A DNA stretch of 32,532 nucleotides from Desulfurococcales archaeon (lineage in GTDB: Archaea; Thermoproteota; Thermoprotei_A; Sulfolobales; NBVN01). Below, in pieces: positions 25,836-31,374 of this stretch. A program made the position numbers and the translations under genes. Location: positions 1-32,532 of the forward strand of contig JALSOX010000023.1 in NCBI GenBank assembly GCA_026986255.1. The letters run 5' to 3'. Position 1 is the stretch's first letter, and each line of letters opens with the position of its first letter. Under the pieces are notes generated by a model. That model made no database searches. It saw only the letters and a program-made list of their open reading frames with translations, and had not been told where the DNA came from.

Positions 25836-25932
<97 letters not shown>

Positions 25933-26426: not shown

Positions 26427-27260
26427 TTAGAAAATTAAGTATTTCTTCAGGACTTCGTAGTTCTTCACGATGTGGTCCTTAACGAACTTCAGGTACTTCC
26501 TAGCTACATCTGGCTGAGGTCTTCTGCCTGCGGAGGGTACCTCAACTTCGAATATGTCTGGTTCGGCATCCTTGGCAACCTCGGCCACGTGGCCATCCCT
26601 CTCTATAATGAACGTAGGTTGCTGGATGCTCCCATTCTCTGCGTAACCGCCGATCCCTATGATCGGTATGTCATTCTCGTTAGCCCTCGTGGCGGCAAGC
26701 ATTAACGTCATCTCCGGCCGCCTCCGCGTGATTATTGGGGGAGACACCGCAACGATTGTGTCGCCACCAAGAAACGCGTAGGCCCTTATAACCTCAGGTA
26801 CCTCTAAGTCGTTGAGTATAGCAAAACATATGTTTACATTCTCTATGGTAATCATCTCTATGTTCGGGCTCCCGGAAACCTTGCTTGACACGGGTATGAC
26901 GCTCTTCCCTCGGAATATGGGCGGCCCCACCGAGGGTATCAGGACGTTACTTAAGTATAGCTTATTACCCGCCCTTCGGAGAACCGGCGTCAACACTAGG
27001 GTTATGCCCCTGCGCCGAGATATTGAAGAGAGCCTACTCACTAGCGTTTTGAGGTTACTTCTGTAGTTACCGTACCTCCGCTTACCTATGAGTGTCTCGT
27101 ATAGAGGGAGCACGGGTGGGGATAGCAGGAGCGCTGAAACCCTATTGCTTAGGTGTTGAGTTATCTCGTCTGTCTTACGGATGAACTCCCTAGTCCCTAC
27201 ATCTAGGTTCATGCGGGCTACCGCGAGCACTACCCTGCGGTACTCCTTACCTGCGCTCAA
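26427..27260 (-). CDS. Nitrilase-superfamily fold protein, probably catalytically dead
   Basis: About 277 aa. The carbon-nitrogen hydrolase fold is recognisable: an N-terminal strand VVLAVARMNLDVGTREF, a central NVNICFAILNDLEVPEVIRAYAF that aligns to the I-C-Y-D-x-x-F-P-E-x-x-R motif, and a late IPIIGIGGYAENG. However, the position of the catalytic Cys is Leu (ILNDLEVPE against ICYDxxFPE) and the usual catalytic Glu (F-P-E) reads S-P-P. It may therefore be a non-enzymatic or regulatory relative. TTG 27260 is preferred: GGAGG lies 9 nt upstream and it overlaps the reverse gyrase stop by 14 bp. A TTG at 27278 or GTG at 27230 is possible. It is coupled to reverse gyrase. Confidence 0.68.
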   Translation of the reverse strand: MSAGKEYRRVVLAVARMNLDVGTREFIRKTDEITQHLSNRVSALLLSPPVLPLYETLIGKRRYGNYRSNLKTLVSRLSSISRRRGITLVLTPVLRRAGNKLYLSNVLIPSVGPPIFRGKSVIPVSSKVSGSPNIEMITIENVNICFAILNDLEVPEVIRAYAFLGGDTIVAVSPPIITRRRPEMTLMLAATRANENDIPIIGIGGYAENGSIQQPTFIIERDGHVAEVAKDAEPDIFEVEVPSAGRRPQPDVARKYLKFVKDHIVKNYEVLKKYLIF

Positions 27261-30200
27261 AGCATCCGCCCTCCACAATCCTAAACTGCCTTAACTCGTC
27301 ATATAACTCATCAAGCAACTCCTCGTACCTTGCTTTTCCTTCCTCAACCTCCCTCATCCTCCTCTCGAGGAACCTTGTTCTTTCTTCACTAACTAACTTT
27401 TCGTACTTTGACTGCAAGTAGGAGTAAACTTCCCTGCCTAGCGGTAGCGGCACTATGCCCAACTCACGCCTCCCTCCCTTCCCCTTCACCGCGATGTAGG
27501 CTACGTAGTGCCTCTTGAAGAGCGTGTCCACGATCTTAGCGTACGTGCTAGGCCTACCTATTTCCTTCTCCTTCATCTCCCGTACGAGTGAAGCTTGAGT
27601 ATGTAGGGGTTCACGGTGCCACTCCTTGAGCTCAAATCCGCGGCTGATAACGTACCTCCCTTCCTCGGGTACTCGCCGCACGCTGAAATACCTGTAGAAT
27701 GCGGTGAATCCATCAAATATCAAGTCGGAGTACACCTCGAAGTTCAGGGGGTCAAGCTCCACTGCCGTGCCGTCACTGAGCAGTACCGTCACCCTAGCTA
27801 CGCCCCTCACCTTCTTTACGACTGTGGGCTTTGATTGGGAGGCCATGAACCTCCTGAATATTAAGTCGTACACAGCAAAGTGTGCGCGGGTCAGCCTCCT
27901 CACAGGCTCTATGATTCCCTCATTAATTAGGTTCCTCAGAGTCTCTACGTCAATGGGTCTAGTGGGCCTTATACACTCATGCGCTCCTCCCTCACCCCAG
28001 GTTCTGGGCTGGAAGTAGTTCTCGAACTTATCACCGAATTTCTCCTTCATGTACTCCCTAGCGACGCTAATACCGACGTCAGAGACCCTCGTACTGTCCG
28101 TTCTGTGATACGTTATGAAGCCAAGCTCGAACAGGTCCTGCAGTATCTGCATGGCCTTAGGTGCCGGGATGCCGTACTTTGAGGAGATGTCGTAGAGTGC
28201 GGAGTCCGTAGTGTATGGGGGTAGCGGGTTGACCTGAGTCTCCGTGATTTCCTCGTACCTCACCTCCGCTATGACGGTCTTGACCTTACCTGAGTGTATC
28301 TTCCGCCGCTTGTCCTCCGGTATCGGTATCTCTAACCTTAACTCTTCGAGCTGTAAGATTAGGAAAGGCGTCTTTGACTTTATGTGGCGGTCATACGCAT
28401 CTATTATCCAGCCAAGTACGGGTGTCTGAACTCTTCCGGCGCTGAGGTTTCTGTATTCCTTAGGGTTGGCCTCGCAGAGCTTAGCGTACCGCTCGAGGTA
28501 TTTTAGTGTTCTTTTGTCTATGCGTGCACCCTCCTTCTTAGCCTTAGGTAGGGCCTCTAGCTTCTTCTTACAGAACTCTTGCCAGAACTCCGTCTGTAGT
28601 TTACGTGAGAGTGAGAAGCCTATCCACCTATCCTCTATCCTCCTGACGAGTTGCGCCTTAACTAGGTCGTAGTTTATCTTTCTGGGGTTATTCACGGCGT
28701 TGATGATGGCCCTTCTCGTTACCTCATGGAACTCCACCCTATACACGTTCCTATTCACTGGGAGGATCACGTTAGTTATATCGAACGCTATCTTCTCTCC
28801 CTCAGTGTCTGGGTCCGTCCCGACCAGTATTTCATCTACCTCCAGCGCTACGTCCCTCAATGCCTCGACAGCCTTGACGGAGTCCATCACATTAGTTGAC
28901 CCGCAGTAGGGACACCGTGGGTTCCGCTCGTCCAGCTCGGCCGTGAACTGATGACCGCAGTTATTGCATCTCTTAAGCGTAGTGTAGATAGGCACGAACC
29001 TGGGTCCGTGTTTATTATTCGATCCGCGGCAAACTATGCCGTGAATCGTGGGTAGCTCTTCCTTCAGCTCCGTGACTAAGTCGTAGATATGGCCACCGCT
29101 AGCCGTTATGAGTAGGGTGTAGTTTCCTAGGTTGGCTTCATAAACCCTTAGACGACCGTACTCCCTAACGCTTGGTCTGCCAAAGAATTTAGCTATGGTT
29201 CTCGCCTTGTTTGGAGACTCAACCACTAAGAGAGCTGTCTTCAACCTTAAGGGTCCTTCCTTACCTATCGCTTCACGCGGGATTCGTCCCTCCCTTATCC
29301 TACGTATTAACTCCCTAGTCCTGTCTATTTCTGATAACACCTCATCTAGACGCACCTCATTTAACGGTATGAACTTGAAGTCATCAATCATCCAACGCAG
29401 TCTCCTCTCAAGCCCACTGAGTATTCTCTCATCATCTACTATCACTACTGAGAGACCCTTGCTTATGCCTCCTAAGTAGAGCCTTGACGTCCTGCCGCTC
29501 GCCTGGATGTAGGTTGGTGCGTCCGGTATCAGCACGTATAGGTTGCCATCCTCCTCGTAGACGGCTACGTTGGGGTTTCGACGGATTGCCTCGAGGATTT
29601 CGGGCTTGGTTAGGAGGTTATTGAGCAGCTGGTAGGCATCCATGAATTCCCTCTCAGCAGGGGTTGCTGGTTTGCGCTTGCCTTCGAGCACTTTATTAAG
29701 TACTTGAATTAAGGCCATTCCCGCCCTCCTTAAGTACCTCCTCAGCCTGACGATGTGGGCGTCTATCGCGCGTCGTTGCTCGCTATCCTCTACAGCATCC
29801 CTAACGAGAGGAAGTAGTCTAAGGATGTCTTGGGGCTTCACACCCTCTAGTCTGAGGCTTATCTTGTGCCTCGGGGGCCCCGCAAATATGGCGTAGCGGA
29901 TCACTTCGGGTAAGTCAATGCCCCTAACGAGTATCCCGTAGTACGTGGCTACGCCCACCAGCACGTCAAGTTCTCCTTTAGCAAACCTATCTATAGCTGC
30001 GACGTTCCTGCTGTGCACGGCCTCGGCCTTAATTCCCCGTTTCCTCAGGTACTCCGCTACCTCCATAGCGTAGTCCACGCCCTTGTCTATTGGGACGTAG
30101 ATTAGGCCGCCCCCACCAAGCCTCCTAACTAACCGCAGGATCGTCTCCTTAATGTCGCCCTCGGGGTGCTTGTAGGTGTCCACGATATTACGTATGAACT

Positions 30201-31155
30201 CCGGCCTAGCACCGATCTCAAAGCCCAGTAGTTCCTTGAACAACTTAACCCTTGTGCCGCGCGGATTGCCTGTAGCTGACGCTATTATTAGTACCTTATC
30301 CACTTTCCGCCTTTTACGCTCAAGTACCTCCTCTATCTGGTTGAGCTTCTCTAGGAGCTTCGTGTCTTCCCCTCTGAACACGAGTTCCCTCTTAAGCCTA
30401 ATGGCCTGCAATGCGCGCTCTAAGTCTTCTTCGGTGAACCCCAGTAGTTGGAGCACGTAGTTTATGGCCTTAGACCCTTTCAGTATGGCATCGACGTCGT
30501 CAACGAAGATGAATTTGAAGTCGTGCCTGAGTATCTTATCCGGGTTGCGGAGCAGGTAGTTTGAGGTAGTCACGAGTATGTCGAAGCCCTGCGGATCCTC
30601 TAAGGCTTTCTCCCGTGCCTCCCTTTCACGCTTCTTGAGCTTCGAGTGAATGGCAACGAACCTAACCACGATCCCCGCCCTCGCAGACATCTCCTCAAGT
30701 CTCCTCTCAAGCTGCATGGCCAGCGCCGTCGTGGGGACTATGAAGTACGACTTATGTCCCTTCATAGCTAGGTAGAGCGCTACGGCAGCGCCGAACGTCG
30801 TCTTACCGACCCCGGTGGGCGCTATCATCGCGAATGAAGCCTTCTTAGCTATTCGCTTAATCCACAGCCTCTGAATGCTCCACGGGTCATTACCGACGCA
30901 TCTCCTGAAGAAATCACAGATCTCCTCATACGTACGGGTAACCTCATGCAACACCCCATACGCTTTAAGCGTGCCTAACCCCCTAAGCTTCTCGTAAACC
31001 TCATGAACGGATAGCTCCGCAGGAGGCTCAGGCAGGCATGAGGAGCAAGGCAAGCCCCTCTCTAAGCGCCTATCACTCACGAACCCCCCGCAGTTAGGGC
31101 AAGCCCTCCCATAGACCAGGAGGTCAGCCCCCTCAACTTCCTCCCTGAGCGTCAT
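27247..31155 (-). CDS. rgy: Reverse gyrase
   Basis: About 1302 aa, the hallmark enzyme of hyperthermophiles that introduces positive supercoils. The N-terminal zinc finger is CPNC...CSSC (about 19-40). The helicase-like module has Walker A APTGVGKT (112-119), DDVD (219-222) and QASGRTSR (551-558). The topoisomerase IA module has VVESPNKA (about 644), a second zinc finger CNNC...CPYC (730-751), TDPDTEGEK (about 780-788) and catalytic Tyr in TYHRTDS (Tyr about 1016). Both halves are intact. ATG 31155 with GAGGT 8 nt upstream is preferred over TTG 31167. TATA-like CCTTTATTAG near 31188-31197 would give a very short leader. The downstream nitrilase-fold gene overlaps its end. Confidence 0.97.
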   Translation of the reverse strand: MTLREEVEGADLLVYGRACPNCGGFVSDRRLERGLPCSSCLPEPPAELSVHEVYEKLRGLGTLKAYGVLHEVTRTYEEICDFFRRCVGNDPWSIQRLWIKRIAKKASFAMIAPTGVGKTTFGAAVALYLAMKGHKSYFIVPTTALAMQLERRLEEMSARAGIVVRFVAIHSKLKKREREAREKALEDPQGFDILVTTSNYLLRNPDKILRHDFKFIFVDDVDAILKGSKAINYVLQLLGFTEEDLERALQAIRLKRELVFRGEDTKLLEKLNQIEEVLERKRRKVDKVLIIASATGNPRGTRVKLFKELLGFEIGARPEFIRNIVDTYKHPEGDIKETILRLVRRLGGGGLIYVPIDKGVDYAMEVAEYLRKRGIKAEAVHSRNVAAIDRFAKGELDVLVGVATYYGILVRGIDLPEVIRYAIFAGPPRHKISLRLEGVKPQDILRLLPLVRDAVEDSEQRRAIDAHIVRLRRYLRRAGMALIQVLNKVLEGKRKPATPAEREFMDAYQLLNNLLTKPEILEAIRRNPNVAVYEEDGNLYVLIPDAPTYIQASGRTSRLYLGGISKGLSVVIVDDERILSGLERRLRWMIDDFKFIPLNEVRLDEVLSEIDRTRELIRRIREGRIPREAIGKEGPLRLKTALLVVESPNKARTIAKFFGRPSVREYGRLRVYEANLGNYTLLITASGGHIYDLVTELKEELPTIHGIVCRGSNNKHGPRFVPIYTTLKRCNNCGHQFTAELDERNPRCPYCGSTNVMDSVKAVEALRDVALEVDEILVGTDPDTEGEKIAFDITNVILPVNRNVYRVEFHEVTRRAIINAVNNPRKINYDLVKAQLVRRIEDRWIGFSLSRKLQTEFWQEFCKKKLEALPKAKKEGARIDKRTLKYLERYAKLCEANPKEYRNLSAGRVQTPVLGWIIDAYDRHIKSKTPFLILQLEELRLEIPIPEDKRRKIHSGKVKTVIAEVRYEEITETQVNPLPPYTTDSALYDISSKYGIPAPKAMQILQDLFELGFITYHRTDSTRVSDVGISVAREYMKEKFGDKFENYFQPRTWGEGGAHECIRPTRPIDVETLRNLINEGIIEPVRRLTRAHFAVYDLIFRRFMASQSKPTVVKKVRGVARVTVLLSDGTAVELDPLNFEVYSDLIFDGFTAFYRYFSVRRVPEEGRYVISRGFELKEWHREPLHTQASLVREMKEKEIGRPSTYAKIVDTLFKRHYVAYIAVKGKGGRRELGIVPLPLGREVYSYLQSKYEKLVSEERTRFLERRMREVEEGKARYEELLDELYDELRQFRIVEGGCFERR

Positions 31156-31214
31156 ACCCAACCTCAAGATATGAGGGCTTAAAACATTCTAATAAAGGAT
31201 TTCCCTTGAAAGAA

Positions 31215-31277
31215 ACCCTCAGTGAAGAGAAGACACATCACCCCCGAAGGTCAGGAGACCGTCGTATCATCACTCAA
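31215..31277 (-). ncRNA. C/D-box guide sRNA candidate (minus strand)
   Basis: Boxes in order on the minus strand: C GTGATGA (31273-31267), 12-nt guide, D' CTGA (31254-31251), 9-nt spacer, C' GTGATGT (31241-31235), 12-nt guide, D CTGA (31222-31219). Both guides have the archaeal 12-nt spacing. A TATA-like TTTATTAG (31298-31305) lies about 26 nt upstream of the start. The D' guide TACGACGGTCTC is complementary over 10 nt to the conserved 23S rRNA stretch AGACCGUCGU near the peptidyl-transferase centre, as recalled. The predicted methylated base is the C five nucleotides from D'. Confidence 0.72.
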
Positions 31278-31317
31278 CACAACAAATATCTAGCCCACTA
31301 ATAAACAAGAACCAAGG
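31274..31317. promoter_or_regulatory. Shared divergent promoter region of the two sRNA candidates
   Basis: The 44 bp between the C boxes hold AAATATC (31284-31290) correctly placed for the plus-strand RNA and TTTATTAG on the minus strand (31298-31305) for the other. Inferred from spacing. Confidence 0.45.
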
Positions 31318-31374
31318 ATGATGAGAGACGAGGAACGACTAAAAGGAATGAAGAAACCTGTCTCAGCTGACTTA
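31314..31374 (+). ncRNA. C/D-box guide sRNA candidate (plus strand)
   Basis: Boxes: C ATGATGA (31318-31324), 14 nt, D' CTAA (31339-31342), 5 nt, C' ATGAAGA (31348-31354), 12 nt, D CTGA (31367-31370). The outer C and D boxes are perfect and AAG/CTT can close the ends. AAATATC (31284-31290) is a possible TATA. The D guide AACCTGTCTCAG is complementary over 10-11 nt to UGAGACAGGUU, the 23S rRNA stretch directly after the minus-strand sRNA's target. Confidence 0.65.

Follow-up and report, generated by a model that had tools for sequence, protein, structure and literature searches.

Divergent box C/D sRNA genes beside reverse gyrase in a Desulfurococcales archaeon and their predicted targets in helix 93 of 23S rRNA

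Two box C/D sRNAs upstream of reverse gyrase

From reading of both strands and a script, two box C/D sRNAs were confirmed at positions 31215-31374 of the window, which is the whole 32,532-nucleotide stretch of DNA analysed here. They lie head to head on opposite strands, with 44 bp between their C boxes, and sRNA 1 is followed in the same direction by reverse gyrase. The features of the locus are as follows.

27247..31167, minus strand: reverse gyrase, next gene after sRNA 1 and codirectional with it (zf_Rg, DEAD, Toprim and Topoisom_bac domains by Pfam)
31189..31196, minus strand: putative TATA-like element TTTATTAG between sRNA 1 and reverse gyrase, kept in four relatives
31215..31278, minus strand: sRNA 1, C/D box, with predicted guides to C2590 and G2056 of 23S rRNA (approximate ends; from boxes, descriptor and relatives)
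31273-31219, minus strand: sRNA 1, C box to D box
31273-31267, minus strand: sRNA 1 C box, GTGATGA
31266-31255, minus strand: sRNA 1 D' guide, TACGACGGTCTC, 12 nt
31254-31251, minus strand: sRNA 1 D' box, CTGA
31241-31235, minus strand: sRNA 1 C' box, GTGATGT
31234-31223, minus strand: sRNA 1 D guide, GTCTTCTCTTCA, 12 nt
31222-31219, minus strand: sRNA 1 D box, CTGA
31274..31317, no strand: 44-bp spacer between the C boxes, with TATA-like elements facing both directions (read by eye, window and relatives)
31314..31374, plus strand: sRNA 2, C/D box, predicted D guide for 23S G2599 (ends approximate; from boxes, relaxed descriptor and relatives)
31318-31370, plus strand: sRNA 2, C box to D box
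31318-31324, plus strand: sRNA 2 C box, ATGATGA
31325-31347, plus strand: sRNA 2 D' half, degenerate, without clear D' box or accepted target
31348-31354, plus strand: sRNA 2 C' box, ATGAAGA
31355-31366, plus strand: sRNA 2 D guide, AACCTGTCTCAG, 12 nt
31367-31370, plus strand: sRNA 2 D box, CTGA

Both sRNAs belong to a known kind. Four boxes, 12-nt guides and a 9-nt spacer from the D' box to the C' box were found in sRNA 1, in agreement with archaeal box C/D sRNAs, and it alone matched a strict C/D descriptor in the 32.5-kb window. In sRNA 2 the C, C', and D boxes are present and the D' box is degenerate, and it was matched by a relaxed descriptor only; sRNA 1 and sRNA 2 were the only sites of that descriptor in the window, and neither version yielded a site in 100 composition-matched first-order Markov sequences. 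An earlier note on this DNA had read two sets of C, D', C', and D boxes; the two sRNAs on opposite strands, 44 bp apart, stand, and the full four-box set is plain in sRNA 1 only, since sRNA 2 has no clear D' box. At 31215-31374 no C/D family reached its Rfam gathering score, the sole match of the window at gathering being a tRNA; nine sub-gathering matches at the locus were all to archaeal C/D families, the best being sR6 (18.7 bits vs 60).

The same note had placed the pair beside reverse gyrase, and the four Pfam domains encoded by the neighbour of sRNA 1 bear this out; its start codon is TTG, an ATG at 31155 being also possible. The TATA-like elements that face both ways suggest that the 44-bp spacer acts as divergent promoters for sRNA 1 and sRNA 2. 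At the other end of reverse gyrase, a carbon-nitrogen-hydrolase-like gene (window 26427-27278, minus strand; weak Pfam match) overlaps it; of 21 loci searched, 20 have a relative adjoining reverse gyrase, some of these loci lacking the sRNA pair.

Predicted 23S targets and covariation with helix 93

The guides were matched to the 23S rRNA of close relatives as a stand-in for that of the organism itself, with E. coli numbering by alignment; the target site TAGACCGTCGTGAGACAGGTC was present in three of four close-relative genomes, one of these having a complete 23S. The sRNA 1 D' guide pairs with 2587-2597 (11 pairs, one G-U), placing C2590 at N+5, and its D guide, which the earlier note did not contain, pairs with 2053-2063 (11 pairs, one G-U), about 530 nt upstream of that site, placing G2056 at N+5. 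In sRNA 2 the D guide forms 10 Watson-Crick pairs (UGAGACAGGU) with 2596-2605, placing G2599 at N+5. Thus three of the four guides have rRNA complementarity in N+5 register, and two of these three are backed by covariation. In the E. coli secondary structure, 2056 and 2590 should lie close together in domain V, although they are approximately 530 nt apart in the aligned 23S sequence.

It had been proposed that the two RNAs guide abutting 23S segments at the positions corresponding to E. coli 2590 and 2599, and the N+5 positions in the 23S of relatives agree with this. The match described for the plus-strand RNA does fall on the adjoining segment, but the pairing is 10 nt long, the next rRNA base being C and not U. 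The idea of two guides for one helix strand was abandoned, as the footprints cover the 5' arm in one case and the loop plus 3' arm of the same hairpin in the other, and 2590 and 2604 change together.

Single guide matches were only modestly better than those of shuffled guides: when each of the three guides was shuffled singly 400 times and compared with 16S and 23S rRNA, the real match was equalled in fractions of 0.025, 0.06, and 0.0175 of the shuffles. The case for targeting is carried by conservation and covariation instead, and with these, targeting of 23S rRNA by both sRNAs appears well supported.

Five genomes of the class (G360, G516, G517, G519, G520; hereafter the swap genomes) carry altered guides, ACGACGcTCT and AgCTGTCTCA, which predict an exchanged 2590:2604 base pair in helix 93, and the 23S rRNA reads GAGCGTCGTGAGACAGCT in five of five. 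The C2590 guide core, CGACGGTCT, faced an unswapped 23S partner in all 25 other genomes that had both an sRNA and a 23S match, G301 being counted among them with one mismatch elsewhere, so that guide and 23S agreed in every one of the 30 usable genomes (5 swap, 25 unswapped). The G2599 guide was AGCTGTCTCA in 5/5 swap genomes and ACCTGTCTCA in 22/25 unswapped ones; G141 and G099 gave no match for this guide, and G487 had only AACTGTCTCA, elsewhere in the genome. Additional matches to AGCTGTCTCA were seen in G368, G500, and G506, by pattern only. In these counts the 23S pattern permitted change at 2590 and 2604 only, and genomes went uncounted for want of a 23S match in three sets (1 of 4, 5 of 16, and 16 of 36).

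Two genomes were dropped before the count of 30. In G518 the guides are altered and the 23S match is unswapped; its 23S fragment, about 76% identical to the class genomes compared, is probably foreign to the assembly. In G448 the pattern match fell in a stretch shared with G446, without C/D boxes around it and apparently coding.

Since the swap genomes look related, the covariation perhaps reflects one event, although even a single swap required matching changes in two distinct RNAs. This helix 93 swap is a natural experiment that supports the predicted targeting. No such covariation test is given by the G2056 guide, because its 23S segment, GGGAGAGAAGAC, was invariant where found (9/14 genomes).

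For the D' half of sRNA 2, a candidate target, AGTTGTTCCTAG, fits the version of this half in one relative (L004) over 9 nt and that of the window over 10 nt with one G-U. It was rejected because it lies within a 651-nt insertion after E. coli 1952, probably an intron, and the D' halves of sRNA 2 homologues at 18 loci had no common target. This insertion is found in the 23S of a relative (L014 and L017, G003), where the 16S also spans more bases than the model; taken together, the two suggest rRNA introns.

Distribution of the pair in relatives and across the class

In four close relatives, all Desulfurococcales MAGs with reverse gyrases 90-93% identical to that of the window, both sRNAs are kept (4/4); the sRNA 2 of L004 has a diverged D' half and an unchanged D guide. 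The glycosyltransferase beyond sRNA 2 in the window was not found upstream in L001 (1,418 bases), L002 (5,000), or L004 (5,000), the upstream sequence of L003 being too short to judge. A head-to-head pattern of the two guides, 70-100 bp apart, was matched in 4 of 398 genomes of the phylum (reversed control, 0), namely three of the close relatives and G183, which is not one.

Within the class, reverse gyrase was matched in at least 222 of 229 genomes. We took 112 reverse gyrase upstream regions from the high-scoring matches listed, not as a random draw, and among the 110 that could be oriented, 17 carry both guides in divergent arrangement and an eighteenth shows the C2590 guide where its contig ends; four lone one-mismatch matches (L088, L108, L122, L147) look like chance. 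When searched class-wide, the C2590-type pattern gave 51 matches in 49 of 229 genomes (10 matches in the reversed control) and the G2599-type pattern was matched in 134 of 229 (7 matches in the reversed control); some of these matches are therefore due to chance. Reversed controls of two further pattern searches gave 1 and 0 matches.

By coordinates, 33 of the 51 C2590 matches have a G2599 match within 400 bp, divergent in all 33. Of these 51, 24 are found no more than 3 kb upstream of reverse gyrase, 23 of them paired. G301, with one mismatch, and G518, whose D' box is CCGA, each have a further divergent pair, so that besides the window 35 genomes of the class have it; in 28 the pair is within 3 kb upstream of reverse gyrase. 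Paired matches were checked by reading; the matches in G538, G549, G550, G491 C54, and G499 C10 are known by pattern only. In this way the conserved divergent pair that the earlier note had suggested looking for in related genomes was recovered both in the close relatives and well beyond them.

The guides and their adjacency have been conserved for long; the identity of reverse gyrase to that of the window falls to 41% among pair-bearing genomes. The distance between C boxes ranges from 36 to 232 bp, with a median of 56 (script count over 34 measured pair loci), and 34 of 35 pair loci (counting the window but leaving out G518) have an intact G2056 guide core, CTTCTCTTC.CTGA, the remaining one running off its contig. 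Translated searches placed reverse gyrase next to the pairs of G491, G494, G498, and G519, and it also adjoins the pair of G301. Of the 28 adjacent pairs, 25 have sRNA 1 pointing the same way as reverse gyrase, and those of G165, G512, and G519 are flipped. Elsewhere the pair and reverse gyrase are on different contigs (G183, G484, G495) or 8.9 kb apart (G520), and no reverse gyrase lies in the stretch searched around the pair in G483, G489, and G518. In G499 and G502-G505 the two guides are themselves on different contigs; pairing is therefore not indispensable.

Homologues of sRNA 1 without a nearby G2599 guide were also seen (L185-L187, from G480-G482, L022, and L023). Their second guide is shifted and adjoins a weak D box, and its target may move.

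An orientation survey covered 94 of the 134 G2599-positive genomes, already known pairs included; its random-placement control contained true sites and was useless. The C2590 motif within 400 bp of the G2599 guide was divergent in 39 genomes, convergent in 9, tandem in 2, and absent in 44, G301 being among the last although it is paired with one mismatch. The tandem cases (G285, G503), both more than 300 bp apart, are probably chance. A different second guide, ATTCTCCTT, is carried by five divergent genomes (G078, G376, G521, G529, G535) and by all nine convergent ones (L279-L283, L287-L290), in which the C2590 and G2599 sRNAs stand tail to tail with ATTCTCCTT in the C2590 RNA. In this second lineage the C2590 guide agrees with an unswapped 23S in 5/5 genomes. 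By contrast, ATTCTCCTT did not fit the 23S 2053-2063 segment in the five genomes read, and against rRNA stretches of four of those five and of G003 it gave weak, G-U-rich matches only. The G2056 guide is thus not kept in the second lineage, and the 2056 bridge is not class-wide.

Proposed function, alternatives, and known systems

Our main reading, to which we assign a probability of about 0.8, is that two box C/D guide RNAs are made from this locus, sRNA 1 directed to C2590 and G2056 and sRNA 2 to G2599, whose overlapping footprints on helix 93 would probably open the hairpin in turn. The RNAs would be transcribed from the divergent promoters of the 44-bp spacer, and each would assemble with L7Ae, Nop5, and fibrillarin. 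Pairing with 2587-2597 and 2053-2063, sRNA 1 would methylate C2590 and G2056, contacting helix 93 on its 5' arm and, approximately 530 nt upstream, another strand in the peptidyl-transferase ring, so that the G2056 guide would bring a second ring strand to the same sRNP. Bound to the loop and to the 3' arm of that helix, sRNA 2 would methylate G2599. The two footprints overlap by about 2 nt; the sRNAs would therefore exclude each other and probably act in turn, between them keeping the whole hairpin open and possibly helping it to fold.

That the motifs arose by chance in an intergenic spacer that makes no RNA is scarcely credible, even with the degenerate D' half of sRNA 2 in its favour, given the empty Markov control, the retention in every close relative together with the pairs of other genomes, and the covariation with helix 93. 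It is also improbable that the sRNAs, or transcription through them, serve to regulate reverse gyrase as a leader or by promoter interference, with the rRNA match secondary: the prevailing codirectional layout of sRNA 1 would suit such a role, but both guides track helix 93, the pair also exists away from reverse gyrase, and reverse gyrase has what looks like a TATA-like element of its own after sRNA 1.

We give even odds to the explanation that both RNAs are real, independent guides whose adjacency is historical in compact genomes, with neither coordination nor a link to reverse gyrase. The split guides agree with it, as do the pairs away from reverse gyrase, those with no reverse gyrase in the available stretch, and the flipped ones; moreover, many loci that lack the pair still have the usual downstream neighbour of reverse gyrase, and local gene order may therefore simply change slowly. 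Against this, the guides remain neighbours after leaving reverse gyrase, the second lineage keeps them adjacent though convergent (9 genomes), and the gene beyond sRNA 2 was not found upstream in L001, L002, and L004. The linkage of the guides persists where the pair has moved away from reverse gyrase and where its orientation has changed, and selection keeping the two sRNA genes together is plausible. A stronger form of the two-guide reading, tentative and in our judgement rather unlikely, is a selected two-gene module in which coupled expression would supply two sRNPs covering helix 93 end to end, one of them also holding the 2056 strand, so that at high temperature the peptidyl-transferase ring would be opened, methylated, and refolded in order; the recurrent location of the module at the promoter of reverse gyrase would tie stabilisation of the ribosome core to the heat adaptation of DNA.

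By numbering offset, yeast Cm2959 is presumably the same nucleotide as C2590, a coincidence already raised in the earlier note. The modification itself exists in yeast 25S rRNA and is guided by snR73, which like sRNA 1 is a C/D guide with the same nucleotide expected, but is a eukaryotic snoRNA (PMC5199042). Among archaea, PMC4644070 lists 23S C2864 as a C/D sRNA target in P. calidifontis (sR30) and I. hospitalis (sR124, sR127) and describes helices 90-93 as a methylation hotspot; C2864 corresponds to E. coli C2590, as counted here from the C2880 = C2606 of that paper. The locus resembles P. calidifontis sR30, a box C/D sRNA with both guides in helix 93 (C2880, C2864), but the second site of sR30 is C2880, whereas that of sRNA 1 is G2056; the section on sR30, sR124, and sR127 mentions no gene pairing, divergent layout, or reverse gyrase neighbour (PMC4644070). 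Furthermore, by joining 2056 and 2590, sRNA 1 would behave like the bridging C/D sRNAs of Table 3 in that paper, whose sites are far apart in sequence and near in structure, although the 2056/2590 pair is absent from that table (PMC4644070).

C/D sRNA genes beside reverse gyrase are also described for a half gene of the split reverse gyrase of N. equitans; unlike the pair of the window, there is one sRNA on each side of the half gene and one of them is permuted (PMC3491384). A review puts the share of archaeal C/D genes with a TATA-like motif of their own at about 20%, and states that clusters of two or three C/D genes occur and that the guides evolve fast, with varied pairing of the two guides; its section on clusters does not mention divergent pairs (PMC7994747). 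In a literature search by title and abstract, we found no description of the conserved paired locus. Against the fast evolution of such guides generally, this pair of sRNAs has retained its targets and the relative placement of its two genes across many genomes of the class. The locus is a sharp test case for whether guides jointly help folding at the peptidyl-transferase centre, and for why such genes sit beside reverse gyrase.

Elsewhere in the window, a tRNA-Ala was called at 25836-25932 on the minus strand, with anticodon AGC and a length of about 97 nt, which is unusual and perhaps reflects a misread intron.
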